Source: Terriglobia bacterium | GTDB lineage: Bacteria > Acidobacteriota > Terriglobia > UBA7540 | Length of the DNA: 12,612 nt | Assembly: GCA_022866195.1 (NCBI GenBank) | Contig: JALHUF010000530.1 | Span: forward strand, 1 to 12,612 | Direction: 5' to 3' | In this document: positions 1 through 12,612 of the stretch, piece after piece | How positions within the stretch are numbered: the stretch's first letter is position 1 | Layout: the number at the start of each line of letters is the position of its first letter | Position numbers and translations under genes: made by a program | Notes under the pieces: generated by a model | What the model was told of the DNA's origin: nothing | Seen by the model: the letters and a program-made list of their open reading frames with translations, nothing else | Databases searched by the model: none

Positions 1-264
1 ATGAACGTCTTCGCCCTGACCGACCTGCAGCGCGTCATCGCCGAGAGAATCAGGGCGAAAATCGGGAAGCCTGTCCGGGTCGGCCGCTACGCCGATCTTG
101 TGGACAGCTTCCATATTTACGGGTCGTATTTCAGCGAGTTCCAGGGTTTCTTGAAGATGGTCGAAAAAAGAACGTTCGTGGAACGGACCTGGAACAGCGC
201 CTACGCCGAGCCGATGTTCGCCGAAGCCCGGGAAAAGCTGAAGAAAGAAAAATGGGAAAAGTGA
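1..264 (+). CDS. Thymidylate synthase family protein, C-terminal part (5' end outside window)
   Basis: This is the last 87 codons of a thymidylate synthase-family gene, an enzyme that methylates dUMP (or a related pyrimidine nucleotide) in the cytoplasm. The frame is open from base 1, and the ATG there is probably an internal Met, because family members have a similar MN-FAL-EL segment inside the protein. The recognisable part is GRYADLVDSFHIYGSYF (residues 29-44), matching the family's conserved C-terminal G-x-Y-x-D-S-x-HIY segment. The tail is rich in Lys and Glu (EKLKKEKWEK, then TGA). The tail matters because a diverged copy of the same codons lies at 12019-12067, where it reads LKKEKREKQ and stops at TAA. 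The present C-terminus was therefore probably supplied by the inserted island. No clear terminator follows. I am fairly sure of the family but not of the exact substrate, and I give no symbol for that reason. Confidence 0.72.
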   Translation: MNVFALTDLQRVIAERIRAKIGKPVRVGRYADLVDSFHIYGSYFSEFQGFLKMVEKRTFVERTWNSAYAEPMFAEAREKLKKEKWEK

Positions 265-284
265 TAATCCTGGTATGGGAGATC
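236..284 (+). repeat. Left direct repeat, candidate attL (end of synthase gene)
   Basis: The repeat pairs with 12019-12067. The first 17 bases are identical (AGCTGAAGAAAGAAAAA, 236-252 and 12019-12035). Over 49 bases I count 41 matches, and the mismatches are mostly transitions. Similarity ends abruptly on both sides. The repeat contains the final codons and stop of the synthase gene, so the reading frame is kept across the putative crossover. The 17-bp block is the best candidate for the crossover core. Confidence 0.68.
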
Positions 285-584
285 AGCCGCGCCTTTTTTC
301 ACTTTTTTTCACACCTGTAATTTCATTCAACTTCTCGATAAAAGTGCCCAAAGCCGTGCGGGTAAGCCGCTGCAGCGGGGCTGGCAAATCTCCTATGCCC
401 GTCCGTGACTCGGCTGGCGCGGCACGCATACCTTACAGCTCCCAACCTGGATCGTCCTGGTATTGTACTCAGCTTCCAGAAGGCGCGTGGCAAAACTATG
501 CCGTAGCGTATGACGGCTTGCGGATTTGGAGATATCTGATTTCCCTAATGCATATTTTACACCTTCTGGAGCTCGAACTTTGAG
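283..584 (-). pseudogene. Tyrosine recombinase (XerC/IntI/phage-integrase type) relic
   Basis: On the minus strand a frame open from 584 to 396, with no start, reads SASRHTLRHSFATRLLE followed by AEYNTRTIQ (about 525-447). This matches the box II region of tyrosine recombinases, including the H-x-x-R catalytic pair, and most resembles integron-type integrases (HTLRHSFATHLLE, then a GYDIRTIQ-like stretch). Upstream, the residues GVKYALGKSDISK fit the helix preceding that motif. An ELQKV fragment in the next frame near 563-577 suggests a frameshift. Directly after the TIQ the expected LLGH...TT.IYTH segment with the second His and the catalytic Tyr is absent, and the frame stops at 393-395. Another minus-strand frame continues to a stop at 283-285. 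The catalytic core is thus broken and the N-terminal half is missing. Its place, abutting the left repeat, is where an integrase gene would sit. The plus-strand ORF over this region has no recognisable features. Confidence 0.68.
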
Positions 585-613
585 CTATTTTCTTGAATTC
601 AGTTCAATCGGTT

Positions 614-625
614 CCCTCATGAGGG
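614..625. promoter_or_regulatory. Perfect 12-bp palindrome just upstream of the -35 box
   Basis: CCCTCATGAGGG is its own reverse complement and ends one base before the TTGACA box. A second inverted repeat, CGGCC-T-GGCCG (636-646), lies in the spacer between the -35 and -10 boxes, and a looser one (TTGAA-N5-TTCAA) is at 593-607. Dyads placed around a promoter like this are typical of repressor or controller-protein binding sites. No regulator gene is visible in the window, so operator function is inference. Confidence 0.4.
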
Positions 626-626
626 C

Positions 627-655
627 TTGACATCCCGGCCTGGCCGCTCTAGAAT
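627..655 (+). promoter_or_regulatory. Near-consensus sigma70 promoter for the nuclease module
   Basis: TTGACA (627-632) is a perfect -35 box. The spacer is 17 bases, and TAGAAT (650-655) matches the -10 consensus at five of six positions. A transcript would start near 661-663, and an AAGGGG ribosome-binding site (669-674) lies just downstream, five bases before a TTG codon at 680. The geometry is that of a strong constitutive or repressible promoter driving the genes that follow, possibly the whole plus-strand array through 11868. Confidence 0.62.
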
Positions 656-679
656 CCTACGTGAGACGAAGGGGTTCAA

Positions 680-814
680 TTGATCTTCTCCGAAGTATCA
701 TCCGTTTCCGAAGAAAAGGCATTTGCGATACTCGTTTCGCAGGCGTTTATACGGCACATGAAGCGGTATCCCGGTTGTTATATTGATCCATATAAACAAT
801 TTTGGCCACTTTGA
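680..814 (+). CDS. 44-codon frame, probable displaced N-terminus of the T5orf172 protein
   Basis: A TTG codon at 680 sits five bases after AAGGGG and about 18 bases after the predicted transcript start. It opens a 44-codon frame ending in TGA at 812-814. The peptide begins MIFSEVSSVSEEKAF and ends CYIDPYKQFWPL, with protein-like composition. The long frame of the next gene is open from 796 onward in the -1 phase, so the two overlap for only about 16 bases. Joining them gives a natural-looking protein of about 600 residues whose start has a proper promoter and ribosome-binding site, whereas the TTG at 802 has none. I therefore read this as the true N-terminus, cut off by a one-base deletion (or sequencing error) in 796-811, for example in the TTTT run at 800-803. 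The alternative is a real leader peptide coupled to a downstream TTG at 811. Confidence 0.5.
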   Translation: MIFSEVSSVSEEKAFAILVSQAFIRHMKRYPGCYIDPYKQFWPL

Positions 815-2490
815 GGCGCGGAAAACTGGGAATGCCAGATCATCGTGCGCGAATGGCCGCGATCGGGCGCTTTGCTTTGCCGTCGGCGGGCACTGCATCT
901 CGCGCTGCTCTTGATCGGGTCTTAAATAAGTTGAGAGAGGATCCCCAACTCGATCGCGATGTTCGCAAGCAGTGGAATCGCGCCCGTGCGCTTGTGATCG
1001 CACAGCAAGACAACGGAACTGACCTTCAGGTCGATGCGACCCTCCGCTACTTCCACGCTGAGTTCAATAATCGAACTATCCGACACGGACTCCAATATAT
1101 GCCGATGTCGTTCAATGTTCTTGAGGCGTTTCACCAATACCTTCCGGAGATGTCAGTCTTTCGGCTGCGTCGGCAGATTGATCACGTCTTTTCAGTTCCA
1201 GATTTTCTCGACCGTGTTACTCTGAACGAGCTACCGCTTAGCCTCAACGAAGCCGCCTCCTATTTCGAAGAGGGGGTCATCTACAATTTCGAGAATGCGG
1301 TCGATCCCGCGGATCTCGAATTCTCCATCCGAGATGGCGCAAAGGTCGGGATTGCTGGCTTCTCGGTGGTAAAACACGGCAACGAGATCTCAGCTCTCTT
1401 GCTTGGGGGAGAGGAGGCTGACCTTGGCAAGGCGTCAGAATCGCTCCAGAATAACCTTACGCTCCGACCGATTCCAGGCAAGGAAGCCATAGGGCCAGCT
1501 CCCGATTTTAAACGTCAAGCAGTCCCCTTGCCGAGCAAACGACACCTGTGGAAGACGCTGGCACTGACCCGATTCGATCTTGATAGCGTCAGCCAGCATG
1601 TTAGATATGTCATGCATGACTGCGGGGATTGCTATATGTCAATCACCAATGATCCTGCTTGCTTCCTCAACGAGCATGGCGAGTTCATCGACCCTTCTTG
1701 CGAGGACACGCTCAAGGAAACCAGTGAGAGAATCCGGACATATGAGGTGCTTTTTGAGTTGTGTTCAACCTTCCTATATCTGCCGGTCTATTTCGAGAAG
1801 TTTGGCGATCTCGCGACGGAGGAACGGCGCAAGACTAGGTACGGAGACAATGCAGGTAAGCTTTCGTACGGCTCCATCCGTAAGCAATGTCCTGGCGAGG
1901 AAAAGCTTGCCTTCAGGCGTCTCACCGTGCTCTCATCCACCGGTGAGCACTTCGAATCGAGTTGGTCCTTTTTTCGGGCGCCGCCCTTCCGAGTTGAGAA
2001 GTCGGGCTACTGGCGCCGCTTGCCGCCTGGTACCGTTGGATCTGACCGACAAGGGCAGCCTGTCCACGGGCGCACGTGGGTGCAGAAGCGTCTCTCCTGG
2101 GTGGAAGATGAGTCCCTTGACGCAATCACGTTAACCCGGCTCTCTCAGCGACAAGACCCGCAGCTACTCCGGACCGGCCCCGACCCGGGCAGGATATACG
2201 TAATGAGGTCAGCGGGTCATCCTCGCAACATATTTAAAATCGGATCGACCCGGAGGCGCACTGAAGAACGTGCGGAAGAACTCTCGCAGGCCAGCGGGAT
2301 CCTCGATGGGTTTTTCGTCATACATGACTGGTACGTCTTGAACTGCTCTGAAGCAGAATCGCGAATTCACGCTCGCTTGGAGCTGTATCGAGTTAATCCG
2401 AAGCGGGAGTTCTTCGATCTTCCCCTCAAAGAAATCGTGCGTGTGATCGAGGCGGTGGTTTTGGAACTCAACGGAGGTATGAATGGCTGA
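802..2490 (+). CDS. Large protein with C-terminal T5orf172 (GIY-YIG-like) nuclease domain
   Basis: The C-terminal 100 residues match the T5orf172/MUG113 domain, a GIY-YIG-like putative endonuclease fold: RIYVM (464-468), FKIGST (478-483), a conserved A-E-x-x-x-H (E519, H523) and REFFDL (535-540). The first 430 or so residues I do not recognise. They contain a YWRRLPPG...GRTWV stretch (about 410-430) just before the nuclease domain, which may be a separate DNA-binding or linker module. There is no signal peptide or membrane segment, so it is cytosolic. The 802 start is TTG without a ribosome-binding site and the frame is closed by TAA at 793. The real start is probably TTG 680 through a frameshift. 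The gene is first behind a strong promoter and 77 bases ahead of an OLD-type nuclease, with which it probably works in anti-phage defence. It is visibly less GC-rich than the type I operon downstream. The domain call is good; the function is inferred. Confidence 0.72.
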   Translation: MATLRRGKLGMPDHRARMAAIGRFALPSAGTASRAALDRVLNKLREDPQLDRDVRKQWNRARALVIAQQDNGTDLQVDATLRYFHAEFNNRTIRHGLQYMPMSFNVLEAFHQYLPEMSVFRLRRQIDHVFSVPDFLDRVTLNELPLSLNEAASYFEEGVIYNFENAVDPADLEFSIRDGAKVGIAGFSVVKHGNEISALLLGGEEADLGKASESLQNNLTLRPIPGKEAIGPAPDFKRQAVPLPSKRHLWKTLALTRFDLDSVSQHVRYVMHDCGDCYMSITNDPACFLNEHGEFIDPSCEDTLKETSERIRTYEVLFELCSTFLYLPVYFEKFGDLATEERRKTRYGDNAGKLSYGSIRKQCPGEEKLAFRRLTVLSSTGEHFESSWSFFRAPPFRVEKSGYWRRLPPGTVGSDRQGQPVHGRTWVQKRLSWVEDESLDAITLTRLSQRQDPQLLRTGPDPGRIYVMRSAGHPRNIFKIGSTRRRTEERAEELSQASGILDGFFVIHDWYVLNCSEAESRIHARLELYRVNPKREFFDLPLKEIVRVIEAVVLELNGGMNG

Positions 2491-2533
2491 CACCAGCATC
2501 GAGCGGATGCGCTGGGAAGACGCTCGCCGCTGA
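2483..2533 (+). CDS. Possible 16-codon ORF (MADTSIERMRWEDARR) or gene remnant
   Basis: An exact GGAGGT (2473-2478) lies four bases before ATG 2483, which overlaps the end of the T5orf172 gene in another frame. The frame stops at TGA 2531-2533. The ribosome-binding site is the best in the left half, yet the peptide is only 16 residues and resembles nothing I know. It may be the surviving start of a gene lost when the neighbouring genes were brought together, a coupling ORF for the next gene, or chance. Confidence 0.25.
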   Translation: MADTSIERMRWEDARR

Positions 2534-2567
2534 TGCTAGACGCTCAATCAACGTATAGGGGGTGACT

Positions 2568-4520
2568 GTGCCCGATAGATCAAGATTGGTGAAAATTTTT
2601 ATACGCAACTTGGGGTGCATCGGTCCAGAGGGCTGCGAAATTGCACTCGACAGCGTCCTCAGTTTAGTCGGGGGCAATAATACGGGGAAATCGACAATCC
2701 TGCGAGCATATGAACTTGCTCTTGGTACGGTCACGTTTGATAAGGCAAAGGACCTCTGTAGACGAGCTGCTGATGCCGCGGCTACAGTGGAGATATGGGT
2801 CCATATCCCCGAAGGAACTGCGAATATTGCAGAGAAGTGGAAGGCTCCAGATGGAGATCTCAGACTTGTGCGTAGCAAGTGGGAATGGAGCAAGGACACA
2901 AACTGGGCAAAGACTCGAACAACTTGGGATCCGGAAATAGATAACTATTCGGCGGATGATAGAGCTAGTGGGCTGGATACGGTATTCAACAGCCGCCTCC
3001 CCGTGCCTTTCCGTATCGGATCCCTTGAGGATCCAGAAGCCGAGCACAAGAAGCTGCTCACGCTAGTTCTCCAACCTATCGCAGAGAAAATCCAAAGACA
3101 GATGGCAGATGAAACTTCTGCTCTTCGCAAGACAATTGCCTCGTTAGGCGAGTTAGCCAAATCTCCAGTTGATGAAGAACGTGATCGCCTAAACGAGCTC
3201 AAGACAGACTTGAATCGTTCACACAACGCCATTTTTCCGGACCTCAAAATGGACTTCGATATCGGGATTGGCGAACTCGAGATCAATCCCCTTCAAATGC
3301 TTCTGAGAAATTCCAAACTCAAGTTCACGGATTGGCTGGATGAAGTCTCTTGGGCGCAACAGGGAACTGGTTCTCAAAGAGCGCTTTTCTGGACGATGCT
3401 CCAAGTGCGCTCTCGTCTGAAAACCGTCGCTGACATCGCCGAACAGACCAAGAGGTCAATTTCCGATCTTCAGAAGCGCATCAAGAAACTGCAAGATGAA
3501 GTGGATAAGGCAAAGAAAGAAGAGACAAAGCAAGCCAAGAACGAGGAAATACTGAAAATCGAGAAACAGATTAAGGATCTGTCTGAAGCCAAGCCAGAAG
3601 AATTGCTTACTCAGTATGCGGAGGAGTTGTCTCTTCCTGGATATATGCTTCTCATCGACGAACCAGAAATTGCGCTCCATCCGAACGCCGTTCGTGCCGC
3701 AAGCCGCTATTTGTATAATCTGACCGACGACTTTACTTGGCAGGTCATGCTCGCTACACACTCTCCGCTCTTCATTGATCCTCTTCACGACCATACAACG
3801 ATTGTCCGATTAGCTCGAAGCGAAGCCAATCCAACCCCAAAAACATATCGGAGTGATTCAGTTACATTCTCGCCGGACGACAAACAAAACCTCAAGATTC
3901 TCAACCGCTTTGACCAAGGACTCGCCGAGATGTTCTTCGGCCAGTTGCCTGTGCTCATCGAGGGAGACACTGAATACGCTGCGTTTGAACTATTGATGAA
4001 CAAATACCCTGATCAATTTCCGATAAGCAGGAAGCCTGTGCTTGTCAGAGCGCGTGGCAAGCTTACCATGCTTCTTATAATGCGCATACTCAGTGAGTTC
4101 CGCATTTCTTTTGCGGTCTTGCATGATGCCGACACGCCGCTTCGCCGGGATGGAAGCCGAAGTGGTTCATGGACCGCGAACACTGAAATATACGATGCTA
4201 TCCGAGCTATTCGTGTGCAGGGCGTCAGAGTTGTGCATAGAATCTCAGTGCCGGTATTCGAGTATGCTCATCTTCCCCTACAATATGACAAGAATGGTGA
4301 GCTCCTCGAGACGAGTCCAAAGGACAAGCCGTGGCGTACTGTGAAAGCAATCCAGCAAGATCAAAAGGCGGAGGCGTCAATCCTTGCGGCCTTAACGGAC
4401 CTAACGAGTTCGGGATCGGAAGAATCACTTTATGGGGACGATTTTGAGAAGACGCTCTTGCACGATGTACAGAAGTGGGCGTCCGAACATTGCCCTAAGG
4501 ACCCTAGATTCGCGCTATGA
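2568..4520 (+). CDS. OLD-family ATP-dependent endonuclease (AAA ATPase + TOPRIM)
   Basis: The 650-residue protein has the OLD layout: an N-terminal ABC-type ATPase and a C-terminal TOPRIM nuclease. Walker A is GGNNTGKST (35-43). A signature-like GTGSQRALF lies at 266-274. A Lys/Glu-rich coiled coil spans about 290-343. Walker B is LLIDEPEIALHP (D364, E365), and the switch His is in ATHSP (H398). The TOPRIM part starts with VLIEGDTEYAAF (E465) and has the metal-binding HDADTP (D520, D522). All key residues are present, so it is probably active. Family members (OLD, GajA) nick or cut DNA under ATP control in phage defence. Here there is no GajB-like helicase; the partner is the T5orf172 gene upstream. 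I chose GTG 2568 because AGGGGG (2557-2562) lies five bases before it. GTG 2562 is in frame but too close to that site. The stop overlaps ATG 4517 of a short ORF. Confidence 0.85.
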   Translation: MPDRSRLVKIFIRNLGCIGPEGCEIALDSVLSLVGGNNTGKSTILRAYELALGTVTFDKAKDLCRRAADAAATVEIWVHIPEGTANIAEKWKAPDGDLRLVRSKWEWSKDTNWAKTRTTWDPEIDNYSADDRASGLDTVFNSRLPVPFRIGSLEDPEAEHKKLLTLVLQPIAEKIQRQMADETSALRKTIASLGELAKSPVDEERDRLNELKTDLNRSHNAIFPDLKMDFDIGIGELEINPLQMLLRNSKLKFTDWLDEVSWAQQGTGSQRALFWTMLQVRSRLKTVADIAEQTKRSISDLQKRIKKLQDEVDKAKKEETKQAKNEEILKIEKQIKDLSEAKPEELLTQYAEELSLPGYMLLIDEPEIALHPNAVRAASRYLYNLTDDFTWQVMLATHSPLFIDPLHDHTTIVRLARSEANPTPKTYRSDSVTFSPDDKQNLKILNRFDQGLAEMFFGQLPVLIEGDTEYAAFELLMNKYPDQFPISRKPVLVRARGKLTMLLIMRILSEFRISFAVLHDADTPLRRDGSRSGSWTANTEIYDAIRAIRVQGVRVVHRISVPVFEYAHLPLQYDKNGELLETSPKDKPWRTVKAIQQDQKAEASILAALTDLTSSGSEESLYGDDFEKTLLHDVQKWASEHCPKDPRFAL

Positions 4521-4621
4521 AGAGAGTGGTTCCAACAACCGGTGCATTGGACGGCGTGCAGCCGCGGCTGAGCGGCAGGCCTTATGCGCAAAAAACTATG
4601 ATCGAAGCCATGGAAACTTGA
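4517..4621 (+). CDS. Possible 34-codon coupling ORF between the OLD gene and hsdM
   Basis: ATG 4517 overlaps the OLD stop as ATGA, and the frame (MKRVVPTTGALDGVQPRL, then onward to EAMET) ends in TGA directly abutting the hsdM ATG at 4622. It fills exactly the gap between the two genes. hsdM has no convincing ribosome-binding site of its own, so ribosomes finishing this frame could restart at hsdM. The peptide resembles no family I know. A perfect 12-bp palindrome, CAGCCGCGGCTG (4559-4570), lies inside it. Coding status is unproven. Confidence 0.3.
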   Translation: MKRVVPTTGALDGVQPRLSGRPYAQKTMIEAMET

Positions 4622-6172
4622 ATGACCAAAGGTAACGACAAGTCTCTCGAATCCTGGATCTGGGATGCTGCCTGCTCCATCCGCGGCGCCAAAGATGCCG
4701 GCAAATACAAGGACTTCATCCTGCCTCTCATTTTTATCAAGCGGCTGTGCGATGTCTTTGACGACGAACTCAACCGCATCGCCCAAGAGGTAGGCTCGCG
4801 GGCGAAGGCGTTCAAACTCGTGAAGCATGACAAAAAACTTGTGCGCTTCTACCTCCCGCTGGAGCCGAAGAACCCGGACGATGCCGTGTGGTCGGTCATC
4901 CGCACGCTGTCTGACAAGATCGGCGAGCAGCTCACCACTCATCTGCGCGCCATCGCCGATGCTAACCCGTTGCTCAAGGGCATCATCGACCGAGTAGACT
5001 TTAACGCCACCACCCACGGCCAGCGCGATCTCGACGACGACCGCCTCTCCAACCTCATCGAGGCCATCAGCGCCAAGCGGCTGGGCCTCTCTGACGCGGA
5101 GCCGGACATCATTGGCCGCAGCTACGAATACCTGATCCGTAAGTTCGCCGAGGGTAGCGGCCAGAGCGCTGGTGAGTTCTACACCCCCGCTGAGGTCGGC
5201 TTTGTCATGGCCCGCATCATGGACCCACAGCCGGGCATGAACATCTACGATCCCTGCTGCGGCTCCGCCGGCCTGCTCATAAAATGCCGCCTTGTCCACG
5301 ACGAAAAGCAGCCCACCCCCGGCAAAAAGAGCACCGCTCCGATCAAGCTTTACGGCCAGGAAAACGAGCCCGGCACTTGGGCCATGGCCAACATGAATAT
5401 GATCATCCACGACCTGGAGGGAGAGATTCAGATCGGCGACACCTTTCGCTATCCCAAATTCCGCAAAAGCAACCGACTGCAAACCTTCGACCGCGTCGTG
5501 GCCAACCCGATGTGGAACCAGACCGAGTTCAAAGAAAAAGACTACGATGCCGACGAACTCGATCGCTTCCCCAAGGGCGCGGGCTTCCCCGGCAACAAAG
5601 CCGACTGGGGCTGGGTGCAGCACATCCTGGCCAGCCTCAAAAACACGGGTCGCGCCGCCGTGGTGCTCGACACCGGCGCCGCATCGCGCGGCTCCGGCAA
5701 CGCAAACACCAACAAGGAAAAGGACGTGCGCCGCTGGTTTGTGGAGCAGGACCTGATCGAGGGCGTGATATATCTGCCGGAAAACCTGTTCTATAACACC
5801 TCCGCGCCGGGCATAATCCTTTTCCTGAACAAGGCCAAGCCAAAAGGGCGGCGGGGGAAGCTCTTCCTGCTCAACGCTAGCCGCGAGTTCACCAAGGGCG
5901 ATCCCAAGAACTACATTCCCGACGACGCCATCACCCGCATCGCTGACACCTTCACTGCGTGGAAGGAAGTGGAGAAGTATTCACTCATTGTTAGCCGCGA
6001 AGAGATCGCCAAGAACGACTTCAACATCTCCCCCAGCCGCTACATTCACACAGGAGAAGACGGCGAATATCGGCCGATTGCGGAGATTGTGGAGGAGTTG
6101 GAGGGGATAGACGAGGAAGCGGAGGCAACCAATCGGGCGCTCAAGAAAATCCTTAAAGCTTTGGTGGTCTAA
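4622..6172 (+). CDS. hsdM: Type I restriction-modification system N6-adenine methyltransferase subunit M
   Basis: The M subunit transfers a methyl group from S-adenosylmethionine to adenine in the host's recognition sites and forms the M2S core of the type I enzyme. The N-terminal helical HsdM domain starts at LESWIWDAACSIRG and includes LPLIFIKRLCDVFDDE. The EFYTPAEVGFVMARIM segment introduces the catalytic domain. The cofactor motif I is DPCCGSAG (210-217), a normal variant of DPxCGSGG. The catalytic motif IV is NPMW (295-298) rather than NPPF/NPPY, and this form recurs in a subgroup of M subunits. At 516 residues it is of usual length and looks intact. It lies 3 bases ahead of hsdS. The start follows directly on a TGA, suggesting coupling to the short ORF before it. 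The gene is richer in GC than the two nuclease genes upstream. Confidence 0.95.
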   Translation: MTKGNDKSLESWIWDAACSIRGAKDAGKYKDFILPLIFIKRLCDVFDDELNRIAQEVGSRAKAFKLVKHDKKLVRFYLPLEPKNPDDAVWSVIRTLSDKIGEQLTTHLRAIADANPLLKGIIDRVDFNATTHGQRDLDDDRLSNLIEAISAKRLGLSDAEPDIIGRSYEYLIRKFAEGSGQSAGEFYTPAEVGFVMARIMDPQPGMNIYDPCCGSAGLLIKCRLVHDEKQPTPGKKSTAPIKLYGQENEPGTWAMANMNMIIHDLEGEIQIGDTFRYPKFRKSNRLQTFDRVVANPMWNQTEFKEKDYDADELDRFPKGAGFPGNKADWGWVQHILASLKNTGRAAVVLDTGAASRGSGNANTNKEKDVRRWFVEQDLIEGVIYLPENLFYNTSAPGIILFLNKAKPKGRRGKLFLLNASREFTKGDPKNYIPDDAITRIADTFTAWKEVEKYSLIVSREEIAKNDFNISPSRYIHTGEDGEYRPIAEIVEELEGIDEEAEATNRALKKILKALVV

Positions 6173-6175
6173 CCG

Positions 6176-7435
6176 ATGCCTTGGCAATTCATTGAATTCC
6201 CTGCCACGATTGAGAAGACGGCGATCGGTAGAGAGAATCAGATTCTCTCTACCGAAATCGAGCCAAGCGGACGTTTCCCTGTCGTTGACCAAGGCCAAAA
6301 ATTTATCGCTGGCTACTCGAATTCAGAGGAGCGTGTCATTCGCGAAGGGCTTCCTCTGATCATCTTTGGCGATCACACGCGGCGCCTGAAATATGTGGAC
6401 TTCCCATTCATACTCGGAGCCGACGGAACCAAGGTCTTGAAACCGAGAGCCGACCTGTTTGACACCAAGTTCTTCTATTTTGCTCTGTTGAGTCTCGACA
6501 TCCCAAATCGCGGCTACAACCGACACTTCACGATTCTGAAGGAGAGGAGGATTCCTCGACCGGAGCAAGACGAGCAGCGGAAGATTGCCGGGGTGTTGGG
6601 GGTGGTGCAGCGGGCGATAGAGCTTCAGGAGCGGTTAATTATACTAACCACGGAACTGAAAAAGGCGCTCCTCCACCAACTCTTCACCCACGGCTTGCGC
6701 GGCGAAACCCAAAAACAAACTGAAATCGGCCCAGTACCAGAGAGTTGGGAGGTGGCGGAACTCGCCAGTCTTTTTGAGATCAAGCACGGCTTTGCGTTCG
6801 AGGGCGAGTTCTTCGCTTCCGATGGCCGCTACATCCTGCTGACTCCCGGACACTTTTTCGAAGAAGGCGGATTCAGGGACCAGAAAGACAAAACCAAGTT
6901 CTATACCGGTGATTTCCTTCGTAGCTATTTGCTGACGAAAGGTGATCTGCTCGTCGCTATGACCGAGCAGAAGGCAGGTTTGCTGGGCAGTTCCATCGTC
7001 ATCCCTGAGTCCGACAAGTATCTTCACAACCAGCGGCTGGGATTGATTCACAAACTCGATGATTCGCGGCTCAATAAGCTGTTCCTGTATTACTTCTTCA
7101 ACACGTCCGATGTCCGTAAACGCATCGCTATGACCGCCAGCGGCTCAAAAGTCCGCCACACATCACCGGGCAAGATTCGCGAATTGAAGATCGCGCTACC
7201 TTGCTTAGACGAGCAGCGGCGGATCATTGAGACGTTCCAAGCGGTGGACGCAAGGATTGAAATGCTTGGACGCAAGCACGCCGCGCTCACCGACCTCTTC
7301 CGCACACTGTTGCATCAATTGATGACGGCGCAGATTCGGGTGCGCGACCTCGACCTGGATGGAATTCTCTCACAGGCTGTTAGAGAAAATGGCGACAAGC
7401 GGCCGCTAGGTTTCCAGCCGCCGTTGGTTAAATGA
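6176..7435 (+). CDS. hsdS: Type I restriction-modification specificity subunit S
   Basis: The S subunit sets the DNA sequence recognised by both the methylase and the nuclease complex. It has the standard two-half structure: a first target-recognition domain (about 1-125, with PVVDQGQKFIAGY), a conserved helical spacer starting at DEQRKIAG (132), a second recognition domain (about 190-340, beginning after GPVPESWEV), and a second helical region starting at DEQRRIIE (345). The two DEQR segments are 213 residues apart, and both are followed by long helices ending in LLHQL. At 419 residues it is full length and has two distinct recognition domains, so a bipartite target is expected, although the sequence itself cannot be read from the protein. 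A 31-bp palindrome covers codons 17-27. The recognition-domain stretches are lower in GC than hsdM and hsdR, as is usual for exchanged specificity modules. Confidence 0.94.
   Translation: MPWQFIEFPATIEKTAIGRENQILSTEIEPSGRFPVVDQGQKFIAGYSNSEERVIREGLPLIIFGDHTRRLKYVDFPFILGADGTKVLKPRADLFDTKFFYFALLSLDIPNRGYNRHFTILKERRIPRPEQDEQRKIAGVLGVVQRAIELQERLIILTTELKKALLHQLFTHGLRGETQKQTEIGPVPESWEVAELASLFEIKHGFAFEGEFFASDGRYILLTPGHFFEEGGFRDQKDKTKFYTGDFLRSYLLTKGDLLVAMTEQKAGLLGSSIVIPESDKYLHNQRLGLIHKLDDSRLNKLFLYYFFNTSDVRKRIAMTASGSKVRHTSPGKIRELKIALPCLDEQRRIIETFQAVDARIEMLGRKHAALTDLFRTLLHQLMTAQIRVRDLDLDGILSQAVRENGDKRPLGFQPPLVK
6225..6255. repeat. 31-bp near-perfect palindrome inside the start of hsdS
   Basis: The arms TCGGTAGAGAGAATC and GATTCTCTCTACCGA are exact reverse complements, 15 bases each, separated by one A (6240). 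The structure lies 49 bases after the hsdS start and encodes residues 17-27 (IGRENQILSTE). In mRNA it would fold into a stable hairpin near the start codon. On DNA it could extrude as a cruciform or bind a dimeric protein. It is coding, so its retention is compatible with the protein. Confidence 0.85.
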
Positions 7436-7445
7436 AAGGCGCGAC

Positions 7446-8567
7446 ATGAGAGAAAAAGCTATTGCCGGACGTGAATATCTCCAGCTTGTTGCCGATCTGA
7501 AATCCCGGATTCAGTCAGCGCATATTTCAGCGGCGCGGGCGGTCAATCGAGACCTGATTCTGCTTTACTGGGATATCGGGCGGGCCATCGTGGAGAAGCA
7601 GGAACAGATGGGCTGGGGGGACTCCGTCGTCGAGATGCTCGGCCGCGATTTGCAGGTAGCGTTTCCGACCATGCGAGGGTTCTCCGCCTCGAACCTCTGG
7701 CGGATGCGTCAGTTCTTCGAAGCGCATGCAGACCCCGGATTTCTCGCGCAAGCTGCGCGAGAATTGCCCGCAAGCTCTGCGGAGGGCAAAAAAGACCAAA
7801 TACTCGCGCACGTTGCGCGAGAATTGCTGGCTGACATTCCGTGGTGGCACCACGTAGAACTGCTGGCCAAAGTCAAAGATCCCGCCGCCCGCCTCTACTA
7901 CCTGCGCGCCACGGCGCAACTCGGCTGGAGCCGCAATGTGCTACTGAACCAGATCAAGGCCGGGGCATATGAACGAGCGCTCAAGGAGAAGAAAACGCAT
8001 AACTTCGAGCTTGCCCTTCCGGAGCACCTGGCCGAGCAGGCGGATGAGATGCTGAAAAGCTCCTACAACCTGGAGTTCCTCGGCATCGGGCGCGCGGTGA
8101 AGGAGCGGGAGCTGGAAGACCGGTTGATCGAGCGGTTGCGGGACTTCATTTTGGAGCTGGGCTACGGATTTTGCTTTGTGGGCCGTCAGCACCGGCTGGC
8201 GCTGGGAAAGAAGGAATATTTCGTGGACCTGCTGTTCTACCACCGCTTCCTCAAGGCGCTGGTGGCTATCGAGCTGAAGGTGGGGCCGTTCGAGCCGGAA
8301 TACGCGGGCAAGATGGACTTTTATCTGAACCTGCTCAACGACAAGGAACGCGGTCCGGACGACCGGCCGTCCATCGGAATCATCCTCTGCGCGGAGAAGG
8401 ACGACGTGGAGGTGGAATACGCATTGAAGACCAAGTTGAATCCCATCGGCGTGGCGGAGTATCAGCTCCAGCCGAAACTGCCGGGCGAGTTCAAGGGCAA
8501 ACTGCCGACTGCAAAGCAGCTCTCCGATGCAGTCCGTGAGGTCCTGCCCGCCAAACGGAAGATGTAG
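7446..8567 (+). CDS. YhcG/DUF1016 family PD-(D/E)XK nuclease-domain protein
   Basis: This 373-residue protein has the two DUF1016 parts. The N-terminal helical region includes RDLILLYWDIGRAIVEKQ, SASNLWRMRQFF and IPWWHHVELLAKVKD. The C-terminal PD-(D/E)XK nuclease fold has VDLLFYHR (D261) and AIELKVG (E276, K278), matching the expected D...ExK catalytic set. Such proteins often sit inside type I restriction operons, commonly between S and R as here, and are thought to be DNA nucleases or accessory factors, but the role is not settled. Unusually, the segment joining FFEAHAD to the IPWWHH motif (about residues 98-128) carries a duplicated hairpin sequence (7743-7821) encoding LAQAAREL and LAHVAREL, which is longer than I expect for this family. 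Its ATG has AAAGG upstream, and it ends two bases before hsdR, so it is co-transcribed with the type I genes. Confidence 0.9.
   Translation: MREKAIAGREYLQLVADLKSRIQSAHISAARAVNRDLILLYWDIGRAIVEKQEQMGWGDSVVEMLGRDLQVAFPTMRGFSASNLWRMRQFFEAHADPGFLAQAARELPASSAEGKKDQILAHVARELLADIPWWHHVELLAKVKDPAARLYYLRATAQLGWSRNVLLNQIKAGAYERALKEKKTHNFELALPEHLAEQADEMLKSSYNLEFLGIGRAVKERELEDRLIERLRDFILELGYGFCFVGRQHRLALGKKEYFVDLLFYHRFLKALVAIELKVGPFEPEYAGKMDFYLNLLNDKERGPDDRPSIGIILCAEKDDVEVEYALKTKLNPIGVAEYQLQPKLPGEFKGKLPTAKQLSDAVREVLPAKRKM
7743..7821. repeat. Tandem hairpin duplication inside the YhcG-like gene
   Basis: CTCGCGCA-AGC-TGCGCGAG (7743-7761) and CTCGCGCA-CGT-TGCGCGAG (7803-7821) are perfect inverted repeats differing only in the loop. 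They are exactly 60 bases (20 codons) apart, and both are followed by AATTGC. Between them a third, bulged inverted repeat (TTGCCCGCA, then TGC and GGGCAA; about 7764-7787) can form. The period keeps the reading frame. It looks like a palindromic element that entered the coding sequence and was duplicated. Confidence 0.8.
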
Positions 8568-8569
8568 CC

Positions 8570-11524
8570 ATGCCCGCACCCGGCGAACACAAAACCGTCC
8601 AGGCCCGCATCCTGCATTACGCGCAGGAGATCGGCTGGCGCTTTGTGCCGCGCGCTGAAGCCGAGGCGCGACGAGGTTTCGATCCCGATGGCGCCACGGG
8701 CGAAGACCGTGCCCGACCGGCATCGCTTTACTTCGGCGACCTGCTGCACGGCCAGGTGCGTGCCTTCAATCCGAAATACCTGGTTGCCGAGGGCGCGCTG
8801 ATTGGGGAATTTCAGCGGCTGAACGCCGACATCACCGGCAACCGCGATCTCCTCACCTATCTGCGCAACCAGGGCAAGTTCTTCTGCGCGGAGGAGAAGC
8901 GTGAGCTGGACCTGACGCTTATTGACTATGGTGATCTCGACCGCCCGCGCGAGCAGTGGCACAACGTCTATGAGGTAACCGAGGAGTTTTATGTCCACAA
9001 CGGCCGCTTCGGCACGCGGGAGGATGTGGTCTTTCTCATCAACGGCATTCCGGTGCTGGTGATCGAATGCAAGAACGCCGGCAAGGGCGAGGCGATCGCG
9101 CTCGGGGTGGACCAGATCCGCCGCTACCACGCCGAGACACCGGAAGTGATGGTCCCGGAGATGATCTTCACGGCCACGGAGGCCATCGGCTTTGCCTACG
9201 GCGTCACGTGGAACACGGTGCGGCGAAACATCTTCAACTGGAAGCACGAGCAGGTGGGGCAGCTCGAAGCCAAGGTGAAGAGCTTCTGCGCCGTGCCGCA
9301 CCTGCTGCGCCTGCTCAAGGATTTCATCCTCTTCGTGGAGAAGGAAGAGGAGCTGCAGAAAATCATCTTGGGCCAGCACCAGACGGCGGCGGTGGACAAG
9401 GTGGTGGCGCGGGCGCTCGATCCGAAACGTTCGCGCGGGCTGGTCTGGCACACGCAGGGGAGCGGCAAGACCTACACCATGATCAAGGCCGCCGAGCTGC
9501 TGTTCAAAGCCAACGCGGCGCTGAAGCCGACTATTCTGTTGATGATCGATCGCAACGAGCTCGAAGACCAGATGCTCAAGAATCTGGCGTCGGTGGGGCT
9601 GGGAAACGTGGCCCACGCCGACCGGATCAGCACGCTCAACAAGTTGCTGGATAAAAAGGGGCAGGACTACCGCGGCATCGTAGTGACGATGATCCACAAG
9701 TTCCGCGATATGCCGGCCAACCTGAACACGCGCAAAAACATCTTCGTGCTGATCGACGAGGCGCACCGCACGACCGGCGGCGACCTGGGCAACTTCCTGA
9801 TGGCGGGCCTGCCCAATGCCAGCTTCATCGGCTTCACCGGCACGCCCGTAGACAAGACGGCCTACGGCAAGGGCACCTTCAAAACTTTCGGCTGTGAGGA
9901 CGATGCCGGGTATCTGCACAAGTATTCCATCGCCGAGAGCATCGAGGACGGCACCACCCTGCCGCTCTACTACAACCTCGCGCCCAACGAGATGCTCGTG
10001 CCGCAGAAGATCATGGAGAAGGAGTTTCTCGCCCTGGCCGAGACCGAGGGCATCGCCGACATCGAGGAGCTGAACAAGATTCTTGAACGTGCGGTGAACC
10101 TGAAGAACTTCCTCAAGGGCACGGAACGTGTGCACAAGGTGGCGCGCTTCGTGGCGGACCACTACCGCGATAATGTCGAGCCGCTCGGCTACAAGGCGTT
10201 CCTGGTGGGCGTGGACCGCGAGGCGTGCGCTTTTTACAAGGAGGCGCTCGATCAGATTCTGCCGCCGTCATATTCCGAGATCGTCTTCACCGGCAACAAT
10301 AATGATCCCGCTCATCTGAAAAAGTGGCACCTTGACGATAAGCGAGAGAAACAGATCCGGAAGAACTTCATCAAGGTGGGCGAGTGGCCGAAGATCCTCA
10401 TCGTCACCGAGAAACTGCTCACCGGCTTCGATGCGCCCATCCTCTACGCGATGTACCTGGATAAGCCGATGCGCGACCACACGCTGCTGCAGGCCATCGC
10501 CCGGGTGAACCGGCCTTACGAAAATGAAGCGGCGGAGATGGTCAAGCCGCACGGTTTAGTTTTGGATTTCGTAGGCATTTTCGACAAGCTGGAAAGGGCG
10601 CTGGCTTTCGACAGCGATGAGATCAACGCCATCGTCAAAGACCTCGGCCTGCTCAAACAGCTCTTCAAGGCCAAGATGCAGAGCAAGGCCCCGGCGTATC
10701 TCGGGCTCGTCACCAGAAGGTTCGACGACAAGGATGTGGACAACCTGATCGAGCACTTCCGCGACAAGGAGCGGCGCAAGGAATTTTTCAAGGAATACAA
10801 AGAGATCGAGATGCTCTACGAGATCATCTCGCCGGATGCTTTCCTGCGCCCCTTTCTCGATTACTACGCGACACTCTCCTCCATCTACGCCGTGGTCCGC
10901 AACGCGTATGCGATAAAGGTCCAGTTGGACAGGGCTTTCCAGAGGAAAACGAATGAACTGGTGCGGAAACACATCGGCGGCAAGATCTCCACCCAGCCGC
11001 CGGAACCTTATGCGGTGATCGACGCCTCGACCATTGAAGCCATCAAGCGGCGTAAGGAAGGCGAAGCGACCAAGGTCATCAATCTGGTCAAGAGCATCGA
11101 AAGAACGGCGGAGGAGAACAGCGACGATCCCTTCCTCATAGCCCTTTCCGAGCGGGCCAAGGCCGTCCAGGAGAGTTTCGAAAATAGGCAGACAACGACG
11201 GCGGACGCGCTCGTTGAACTTCTCAGGGAGATCGAGAAGAACCAACAGCGGAAGAGGGAGCAGACCGCGAAAGGCCTCGACGCGCTGACCTACTTCGTCC
11301 TCTGCAAGATGACGGATGATGGCATAACCAACCCCGAGCGGGTCAGCCGGAAGGTCGCTGAGGCGTTCGCGAAGTTCCCGAACTGGCGGCGCAGCGAGGC
11401 CGAGCTGCGCGAAGTTCGCCAGCAGGTGACCTTTGCCGTGTTTGCCGAGGAAGACGATATGACGAAGGTGGCGGCCACGGTAGAAGCCCTGTTCACTCAC
11501 CTCCAAAAGAGCTACCGGATATGA
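8570..11524 (+). CDS. hsdR: Type I restriction-modification system restriction subunit R
   Basis: HsdR joins the M2S core, pulls DNA with ATP and cuts it away from the recognition site. The N-terminal nuclease domain has REDVVF (D152) and VIECKN (E166, K168). The superfamily 2 motor shows motif I TQGSGKT (295-301), motif II DEAH (396-399), motif III FTGTP, and late motifs LLTGFDAP and LQAIARVNRPY. The C-terminal helical region, rich in charged residues, mediates contact with the methylase. At 984 residues it is of normal length with every key motif present, so it appears functional. It starts 2 bases after the yhcG-like gene, and its stop overlaps the next ATG (ATGA, 11521-11524), so the operon continues. 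Long open frames on the opposite strand reflect GC-rich codon use and are not genes. Confidence 0.96.
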   Translation: MPAPGEHKTVQARILHYAQEIGWRFVPRAEAEARRGFDPDGATGEDRARPASLYFGDLLHGQVRAFNPKYLVAEGALIGEFQRLNADITGNRDLLTYLRNQGKFFCAEEKRELDLTLIDYGDLDRPREQWHNVYEVTEEFYVHNGRFGTREDVVFLINGIPVLVIECKNAGKGEAIALGVDQIRRYHAETPEVMVPEMIFTATEAIGFAYGVTWNTVRRNIFNWKHEQVGQLEAKVKSFCAVPHLLRLLKDFILFVEKEEELQKIILGQHQTAAVDKVVARALDPKRSRGLVWHTQGSGKTYTMIKAAELLFKANAALKPTILLMIDRNELEDQMLKNLASVGLGNVAHADRISTLNKLLDKKGQDYRGIVVTMIHKFRDMPANLNTRKNIFVLIDEAHRTTGGDLGNFLMAGLPNASFIGFTGTPVDKTAYGKGTFKTFGCEDDAGYLHKYSIAESIEDGTTLPLYYNLAPNEMLVPQKIMEKEFLALAETEGIADIEELNKILERAVNLKNFLKGTERVHKVARFVADHYRDNVEPLGYKAFLVGVDREACAFYKEALDQILPPSYSEIVFTGNNNDPAHLKKWHLDDKREKQIRKNFIKVGEWPKILIVTEKLLTGFDAPILYAMYLDKPMRDHTLLQAIARVNRPYENEAAEMVKPHGLVLDFVGIFDKLERALAFDSDEINAIVKDLGLLKQLFKAKMQSKAPAYLGLVTRRFDDKDVDNLIEHFRDKERRKEFFKEYKEIEMLYEIISPDAFLRPFLDYYATLSSIYAVVRNAYAIKVQLDRAFQRKTNELVRKHIGGKISTQPPEPYAVIDASTIEAIKRRKEGEATKVINLVKSIERTAEENSDDPFLIALSERAKAVQESFENRQTTTADALVELLREIEKNQQRKREQTAKGLDALTYFVLCKMTDDGITNPERVSRKVAEAFAKFPNWRRSEAELREVRQQVTFAVFAEEDDMTKVAATVEALFTHLQKSYRI

Positions 11525-11868
11525 CCATCTGGCGCGACAAAGAAGAGTTCAAGGCCCGTGTGCTGGAATGGGCCGATAAACTGGATGTGAAAGTGGATGC
11601 CCTTTATGTGCGCCCGATGCGCAACAAGTGGGCATCCTGTTCGACGGCCGGCACGCTGAGCTTCAACGGCGAACTGCTGAGCATGGAGCGCGACCTGGGC
11701 GACTACGTGATCGTCCATGAACTGCTTCACTTTTCCGTGCCCAACCACGGCAAGCTCTGGAAAAGCCTCATGCGGACGCACCTTGGGGATTACGAACATC
11801 TTGAAACAAGGATGAAACAAGCAGCGCATCACAACCCGCTGCGGCGGACGGCAACCCGCCGCCGCTGA
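11521..11868 (+). CDS. YgjP/SprT-like (DUF45) zinc metallopeptidase, minimal form
   Basis: The 115-residue protein has the DUF45/WLM zinc protease core: the RNKWASCSTAGTLSFN strand region (about 37-52), the metal-binding HELLH (H66, E67, H70) and a third zinc ligand in PNHGKLW (H76). Proteins of this family in other contexts are about twice as long; here the N-terminal half is absent, but the catalytic block is complete and the start is firm because ATGA overlaps the hsdR stop. Such short copies are common at the ends of type I restriction operons. Their target is unknown; processing of restriction subunits or of DNA-bound proteins is a reasonable guess. The Arg-rich tail (RRTATRRR) could contact nucleic acid. 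It is the last gene of the island. Confidence 0.88.
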   Translation: MTIWRDKEEFKARVLEWADKLDVKVDALYVRPMRNKWASCSTAGTLSFNGELLSMERDLGDYVIVHELLHFSVPNHGKLWKSLMRTHLGDYEHLETRMKQAAHHNPLRRTATRRR

Positions 11869-12018
11869 ACCTGAACGTCCGGCAGATGCGAGTATTGACG
11901 ATGAGGGTCAATACCGACATAATTCATTCGTGCTACTCACGAAAGCTAAAGTTTCCAACCGGGAATTAAGCACAAACCCCCGGAGGAGATGCATCACATC
12001 TTCATGCCGCCTATCCTT
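11869..12018. other. Noncoding right end of the island
   Basis: Between the peptidase stop and the right repeat I see no gene. A GGAGGAG followed by ATG (11988) opens only 11 codons ending within the repeat, probably by chance. The only structure is the hairpin at 11892-11914. No excisionase-like ORF is visible. Confidence 0.6.
11892..11914 (+). terminator. Stem-loop after the type I operon (weak terminator candidate)
   Basis: GTATTGAC (11892-11899) and GTCAATAC (11907-11914) pair perfectly over 8 bases with a 7-base loop. It lies 23 bases after the last stop codon of the operon. No T-run follows, so it is not a classical intrinsic terminator. It may mark a factor-dependent end, protect the 3' end of the mRNA, or be a protein-binding dyad near the island end. 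Confidence 0.35.
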
Positions 12019-12067
12019 AGCTGAAGAAAGAAAAACGGGAAAAACAATAATCCAGGCATAGGAAATC
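12019..12067 (+). repeat. Right direct repeat, candidate attR (original synthase gene tail)
   Basis: This partner of 236-284 is identical over the first 17 bases and matches at 41 of 49 overall. It reads in frame as the synthase C-terminus LKKEKREKQ and TAA (12048-12050), which is the probable ancestral ending. It also contains the AGGAAA ribosome-binding site (12060-12065) of the downstream lysoplasmalogenase. The original gene spacing would have been only 19 bases, so the two flanking genes were probably one operon. Confidence 0.68.
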
Positions 12068-12069
12068 CG

Positions 12070-12612
12070 ATGCTGCCGATCACAATATTATCGCTTTTGG
12101 CCTTGGGCTTTGCGATCCTGACCATAAGCTTTGATTATCTGGGCCGTTGGCGGCTTGTCTATTTTTTCAAGCCGTCGGCCATGATCTTCATCATCGCTCT
12201 CGCCGCGATGGCCAAGCCGTCGTATGTTCAAACCTATAAATATCTCATTCTCGCCGGCCTCGTCTCGTCCCTGGCCGGGGACGTTTTCCTCATGCTCAGG
12301 AATAAGCGGTTCGCAGAGGGGCTGGCCTGCTTTCTCGTTGCCCATCTCTTCTATATCGCGGCCCTGCTCCAAACGATGCCGCTCCAGCTGAGTTTCGGAA
12401 CCGCCCTGCCTCTCATCCTCTATGCTCTGTTCATGATGAGAATCCTTTTTCCGTATCTCGGCCGGATGAAAACGCCGGTGGTTCTCTATATTCTCGTCAT
12501 TACGGCGATGGCCGGGCTTGCCGCCGAACGCTTTATCCAGGGCGGTGGAACAAACGCCTTCTTCGCTTTTCTCGGGGCAATCCTTTTTGTTGTTTCGGAT
12601 TCGGCGCTGGCG
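12070..12612 (+). CDS. YhhN/TMEM86 family lysoplasmalogenase-like membrane protein (3' end outside window)
   Basis: From ATG 12070 the frame is open for 181 codons to the window end. AGGAAA four bases upstream supports the start. The protein is almost entirely hydrophobic with about six membrane helices visible (for example 1-19, 25-43, 57-75, 80-98). Family hallmarks are present: KPSAM at the start of helix two, SLAGDVFLML (D71), a helix with FLVAH (H92) and a closing VVSDSALA (D177). YhhN/TMEM86 proteins are inner-membrane proteins; characterised members hydrolyse the vinyl ether bond of lysoplasmalogens, but the bacterial substrate is often unknown. It belongs to the chromosome rather than the island, and was probably co-transcribed with the synthase gene before the insertion. 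It now lies behind the island's last gene. Confidence 0.82.
   Translation, partial: MLPITILSLLALGFAILTISFDYLGRWRLVYFFKPSAMIFIIALAAMAKPSYVQTYKYLILAGLVSSLAGDVFLMLRNKRFAEGLACFLVAHLFYIAALLQTMPLQLSFGTALPLILYALFMMRILFPYLGRMKTPVVLYILVITAMAGLAAERFIQGGGTNAFFAFLGAILFVVSDSALA

Follow-up and report, generated by a model that had tools for sequence, protein, structure and literature searches.

Analysis of a 12,612-nucleotide stretch of DNA (the window) suggested that a two-gene pair, thymidylate synthase (TS) followed by a YhhN family gene, has been split by an island of 11,734 bases (285-12018), with a copy of the TS tail at each end. Comparison of related loci gives good support to the view that the pair is ancestral. 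Among the explanations considered, we tentatively favor an old insertion of the att type, placed at the TS 3' end and later scarred by an IS110-family element; the involvement of a recombinase in this insertion is plausible but unproven.

The split gene pair and its duplicated tail

The window starts inside the TS gene and contains its C-terminal 87 residues as an open reading frame (1-264, plus strand). This 87-residue piece alone matched no Pfam or NCBIfam model and was identified through a full-length relative (L129), which matches Pfam Thymidylat_synt (PF00303, E 9.8e-12) and, in NCBIfam, thymidylate synthase models, the best being the methanogen type and all scoring below their cut-offs. 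At the opposite end, the gene for a YhhN family protein (12070-12612, plus strand; PF07947, E 2.3e-34), whose relatives are named lysoplasmalogenase, runs off the window.

The window corresponds to contig C424 of G000, the genome to which it is assigned. Comparison with G061, an Aminicenantes assembly (isolate PFL34) taken to be of the same species, revealed 100% identity over window positions 1-141 and 99% identity over 12449-12612, and the nearest named loci of the YhhN gene belong to Candidatus Aminicenantes. No holder of the YhhN gene was found among the 36 searched genomes of G000's family (0/36). Given the flank identity of 99-100% and the absence of the gene pair from G000's family, we infer that contig C424 is probably misbinned Aminicenantes DNA. 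G000 carries a second TS on contig C713, which is 51% identical to the window TS; it is not among the 28 TS hits in 142 genomes of G061's class, a list that the window TS would have topped. A search of G000 with the left stretch 285-800 returned only the stretch itself and nothing in the rest of the genome. The G061 contigs break off on both sides before the island, with the TS contig ending at window 141 and the YhhN contig beginning at 12449, so that G061 is uninformative on the presence of the island.

Among the 142 genomes of the Aminicenantes class, 28 have a TS match at E 1e-20 or better. Setting aside L112 (G061), in which the contig stops within TS, and L154, a relative with 52% identity, left 26 usable loci, in 20 of which YhhN lies directly 3' of TS. 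The surroundings are also conserved: upstream genes are common to G061 and 8/11 loci (the other three have little upstream DNA), a transglutaminase-like gene downstream of YhhN is common to G061 and 7/11 loci, with no gene shared there in the remaining four, and L019 is collinear with G061 on both sides. The uninterrupted arrangement and these surroundings indicate that the pair is ancestral and, as the first-pass annotation had proposed, that the island divided it; the position of YhhN directly behind TS likewise marks the right repeat copy as a remnant of the TS tail. The TS stop and the start of YhhN are separated by -4 to +15 nt in 11 of the 12 measured loci (12 genomes, all within the usable set), the twelfth, L026, having no recognised start codon for YhhN. 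An uninterrupted pair spaced by about 19 bases had been predicted; the pair was found, but the spacing in the window is longer than any of the 11 measured.

YhhN was not recognised downstream of TS in the other six loci (L134, L142, L143, L144, L151, and L152; 0.9 to 1.5 kb examined, two at a contig end), and ordinary genes follow TS in three of the larger pieces retrieved for them. Among the matches listed, no second TS tail match longer than 15 bases was found in the larger pieces of the YhhN-less loci (two end within about 1 kb), and the best tail match downstream at L152 was 25/49 over 1,454 bases. Across the 26 loci, the 0.5-1.5 kb of downstream DNA per locus contained no second tail copy, and the DNA examined held no second occupied TS site. 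As far as this DNA reaches, no relative carries both copies and the flanking genes are adjacent in relatives, in keeping with the earlier proposal. Its expectation of other islands at the same site, flanked by the same 17-bp block, was not borne out: none was found in the 26 loci, and the block is present in 2/142 class genomes, the same frequency as its reversed control (2/142). Separately, the YhhN relative P0003 looks mosaic in comparison with P0001 (29/50 residues identical in residues 1-50 and 121/131 in 51-181), which suggests recombination at the TS-YhhN junction.

The direct repeat lies at 236-284 and 12019-12067, with 41/49 bases identical and the first 17 exact (236-252 in the left copy). 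Of 200 dinucleotide shuffles of the two 600-base boundary zones, none gave a 49-base match above 29 or an exact match longer than 12; shuffling the whole window 20 times gave no 49-base match above 33. These controls confirmed that the repeat, placed at the same positions by the first-pass annotation, is real and far above chance. The left copy (plus strand), composed of the TS tail and 17-20 bases behind the stop, reads ...LKKEKWEK-stop (stop at 262-264) in frame with TS, and the TS frame beside the island is still open with its full tail kept. The right copy (plus strand) encodes LKKEKREKQ-stop at 12021-12050, which agrees with the earlier description of a TS C-terminus with its own stop, and a 19-base gap separates this stop from the YhhN open reading frame starting at 12070.

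All eight differences between the copies, seven of which are transitions, fall in the last 32 bases of the repeat; 28 of the 32 bases up to base 267 match, and 13 of the 17 after it. The probability that eight differences placed at random in 49 bases all fall behind the exact block is 0.023, a figure weakened by the choice of the test after the data had been seen and by a possible constraint on codons; the exact 17-bp block could alternatively result from conservation of the LKKEK codons. In ungapped comparison, the two window tails are nearer to each other (41/49) than to any of the 26 relatives' tails (best 31/49). They differ by 16%, as do the TS bodies when this species is compared with the nearest other one (0.84 identity). 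No exact match to either tail sequence was found in viral_contigs. The earlier statement that the target is not a tRNA was upheld, with no tRNA or tmRNA within the window and no Rfam family reaching its cut-off there. GTGATAATCCTG in the left copy was considered and discarded as a second start of YhhN, since its counterpart on the right side lies upstream of the YhhN start.

Cargo and edges of the island

The island of 11.7 kb is made up mostly of defence genes, and all cargo genes are co-directional with TS and YhhN. Judged by sequence, they are defence genes of known kinds. The first encodes a protein with a GIY-YIG-type (T5orf172) C-terminal domain (802-2490, plus strand), of 552 or 562 aa depending on the start; the start at 832 is more likely, since the 98% identical relative P0121, located on another assembled contig of 10,098 bases, has 552 aa. 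Its long N-terminal part has no Pfam domain. Among the best 7994 candidates, 28 relatives were found at E 0.001 (29-98% identical), and no match was found in the 142 class genomes at E 1e-10 in a search run without a positive control. It is followed, all on the plus strand, by an OLD-family ATPase with a TOPRIM nuclease domain (2562-4520), the type I DNA methyltransferase HsdM (4622-6172), the type I specificity subunit HsdS (6176-7435), a DUF1016/YhcG PDDEXK nuclease (PADLOC PDC-S02; 7446-8567), the type I restriction subunit HsdR (8570-11524), and a YgjP-like metallopeptidase domain protein (11521-11868). The genes hsdM-hsdS-YhcG-hsdR-YgjP make up a restriction operon of type I. The window yielded no intact recombinase. 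Two internal repeats were also observed: a perfect 15-base inverted repeat with a 1-base loop in hsdS (6225-6255), and a 25-base repeat (92%) in the YhcG gene (7734-7830), whose copies are 60 bases apart and also pair as an inverted repeat; the latter looks like an in-frame repeat insertion.

The right edge of the island is formed by an IS110-family remnant (11886-12018, minus strand), consisting of the first 14 transposase codons (11886-11927) and a non-coding element end. The transposase start on the minus strand reads MNYVGIDPHRQYSH. The family call comes from the fuller copies L117 and L119, which match PF01548 and PF02371; the window contains both the DEDD transposase start and the element end common to other copies, as a remnant only. 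Matches to this remnant were found at 7 places, spread over 4 of the 16 genomes searched, and similarity among the copies reaches 12018 in two, 12014 in a third, and less in others. The IS110 end (12014-12018) adjoins the right tail copy, which starts at 12019. Comparison of the element copies thus indicates that the apparent left boundary of the right copy is set, to within four bases, by the end of IS110, and the duplication may once have extended further left. For this reason the 17-bp block, which may be a leftover of a longer match, is not callable as a recombination core on present evidence, and the earlier claim that the repeat fixes the limits of the island finds only partial support. 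Four of the eight IS110 fragments compared (window 11887-11933, L120, L121, and L125) begin within a few bases of each other, and this shared start is a hairpin, GTATTGAC...GTCAATAC, inside the transposase start; it may represent a short non-autonomous form or a breakpoint that is used preferentially.

The left edge contains, on the minus strand, a fragment of an integron-type tyrosine recombinase with an HTLRHSFAT box (447-584, in an open frame at 396-584; PF00589, E 6.1e-7). Among NCBIfam models, the fragment scores best with the integron integrase TIGR02249, reaching 37.9 bits where the full-length cut-off is 265. The fragment comprises 46-63 residues, the catalytic-tyrosine part is missing from the window, and no complete intI gene is present there. 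Relatives of the fragment occur in 12/142 class genomes (E 1e-5), and all four that were run against NCBIfam pass the TIGR02249 cut-off. A decayed block on the plus strand (726-807) resembles blocks behind integron integrases in the class, and we call it attI-like on the basis of this resemblance. Similar blocks occur at 7 places in 4/142 class genomes, and at four of these places the same strand carries an integron-integrase motif no more than about 330 bases upstream of the block. One of them, G121:C18, has a full-length integrase; at a fifth place, G069:C83, we read the DNA by the block as resembling the end of that integrase gene. The blocks end in AAACATTGTTCGGC or similar, which we take to resemble attI, and the core of the window block has decayed to AAACAATTTTGGCC. 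The fragment and the block in the window face opposite ways, with no integrase motif upstream on the block's own strand.

Owing to the decayed core and the opposite orientation, we read the left-edge relics as debris, not a working integron. They probably derive from other mobile DNA, as GTT, the triplet where integron integrases recombine, is absent from the left repeat copy on both strands. The first-pass annotation had missed the integrase fragment and attI-like block as well as the IS110 remnant. Folding of the block was uninformative (z-scores -0.53 to -1.34), four translated stretches of the left non-coding region had no Pfam match, and a plain repeat search recognised no cassette array near three attI-like blocks of relatives. 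The attachment-like blocks of the class, which lie behind integron integrases or what remains of them and are faced by intI, are in G121:C18 (L174), G121:C2 (L175), G069:C83 (L183), G063:C152 (L126), G063:C177 (L181), G071:C101 (L182), and G069:C50 (L124). In the paper library searched, no dedicated report on integrons in Aminicenantes was found, judging by titles and abstracts.

Origin of the split

In the window, TS retains its body with copy 1 and YhhN has copy 2 in front, and the pair is uninterrupted in relatives. In the att-type insertion that we tentatively favor, a mobile element that brought along a TS tail of its own would have recombined with the TS 3' end. TS would thereby have acquired copy 1 (LKKEKWEK) as a replacement, and its original tail, now copy 2 (LKKEKREKQ), would have been displaced to the far end beside YhhN. 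The element's recombinase would since have been lost from the window. An IS110-family element would later have landed at the right junction, where what remains of it now makes up the right edge of the island and may hide the former reach of the duplication. This model is favored by the repeat being above chance, the uninterrupted pair with its conserved surroundings, the closeness of the two tails to each other, the placement of all differences behind the exact block, the open TS frame with a full tail, and the precedent of SGI1. It is disfavored by the lack of an intact recombinase, the IS110 end at the left limit of the right copy, the lack of another occupied TS locus, the occurrence of the 17-bp block at the control level, and the 4/11 loci that share no gene downstream of YhhN. 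The proposal that the TS 3' end served as an integration site is thus plausible as an old att-type insertion, but no intact recombinase was found to accompany it. The lack of a second occupied site and of an excess of the block likewise argues against regarding the TS 3' end as an established integration site.

Homologous recombination with no site-specific recombinase is a real possibility, to which we give less credence. Here, a donor TS 3' end with the island attached would pair with the resident TS on the left, while the right side would be joined through an IS110 copy or by illegitimate joining, leaving the resident tail before YhhN; the tails would differ because they come from two strains. 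The 16% difference between the tails, close to the 16% difference of the TS bodies from the nearest other species, fits this explanation, as do the IS110 remnants scattered in the class (7 places, 4/16 genomes) and the mosaic YhhN relative P0003 at this gene end. However, the donor locus was not found, and what is left of IS110 is too little to reveal homology on the island side. That IS110 transposition itself made the structure, by inserting in a second or the original TS tail and moving or deleting neighbouring DNA so that the tails were left apart, appears improbable: the element end does adjoin the right copy, but only one element end is present, and to our knowledge IS110 elements neither carry 11.7 kb of cargo nor duplicate 49 target bases.

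An assembly artefact, in which the contig joins unrelated pieces, seems very unlikely. The apparent misbinning of the contig in G000 and the ends of the G061 contigs at window 141 and 12449 would be compatible with such a join, but the right copy occupies the place before YhhN that the TS tail takes in relatives, the left copy continues the TS reading frame, and the 98% identical GIY-YIG protein P0121 occurs on another assembled contig. Least credible of all is the capture of the defence genes by an integron integrase acting at the attI-like block. The integrase fragment and the block do lie together at the left edge, but they face opposite ways, neither strand of the left copy contains GTT, and integron capture is not known to duplicate a 49-base target. 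A broader version of the att-type reading, in which Aminicenantes harbour a family of integrative elements, unrecognised to date, that carry defence genes, attach at the TS 3' end, supply a replacement TS C-terminus and sever YhhN from its partner gene, is in our judgment unlikely.

Comparison with known systems and implications

The event is of an ordinary type at an uncommon address. In SGI1 (PMC2297512), the attachment site is 18 bp at the end of thdF/trmE, attP and attB differ by two substitutions in these 18 bp, and direct repeats of a short 3'-end stretch of a protein-coding gene flank the island, as in the window. SGI1 differs in having a working integrase and demonstrated excision, whereas the window lacks an intact recombinase and its repeat spans 49 bases at 84%, with one copy trimmed by an insertion sequence. 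The window thus shares with the SGI1-like mode a repeat containing the target gene end on both sides, an uninterrupted site in relatives, and a kept reading frame, and in place of a recombinase gene on the element it has only an integron-type integrase fragment. Because of this, the island works at most like a 3'-end integrative element and is not filed as one. The dusA-specific integrative elements (PMC8409611) have 21-bp imperfect repeats, encode an integrase and mobilisation functions, and are found repeatedly across many genomes; they similarly supply a diverged end of the target gene and restore its reading frame, but the 5' end of dusA is used, not the 3' end.

The left-edge relics can be compared with the Treponema-type chromosomal integrons, in which (PMC3607928) intI faces attI and the site contains GTTAGGT. 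The succession of an integron integrase and an attI-like site is alike in G121:C18, whereas the window has only a fragment and a decayed block facing opposite ways, and no cassette array was recognised. In gene content, the island is similar to type I restriction and OLD-family defence islands, from which it differs by sitting inside the TS-YhhN pair.

These results indicate that a restriction and OLD-type defence island in an uncultured phylum can be bounded by a duplicated gene tail, and that the boundary of such an island is open to misreading once an insertion sequence has trimmed one of the repeat copies. The debris at the left edge also suggests that genomes of the Aminicenantes class contain integrons in which the integrase faces attI.
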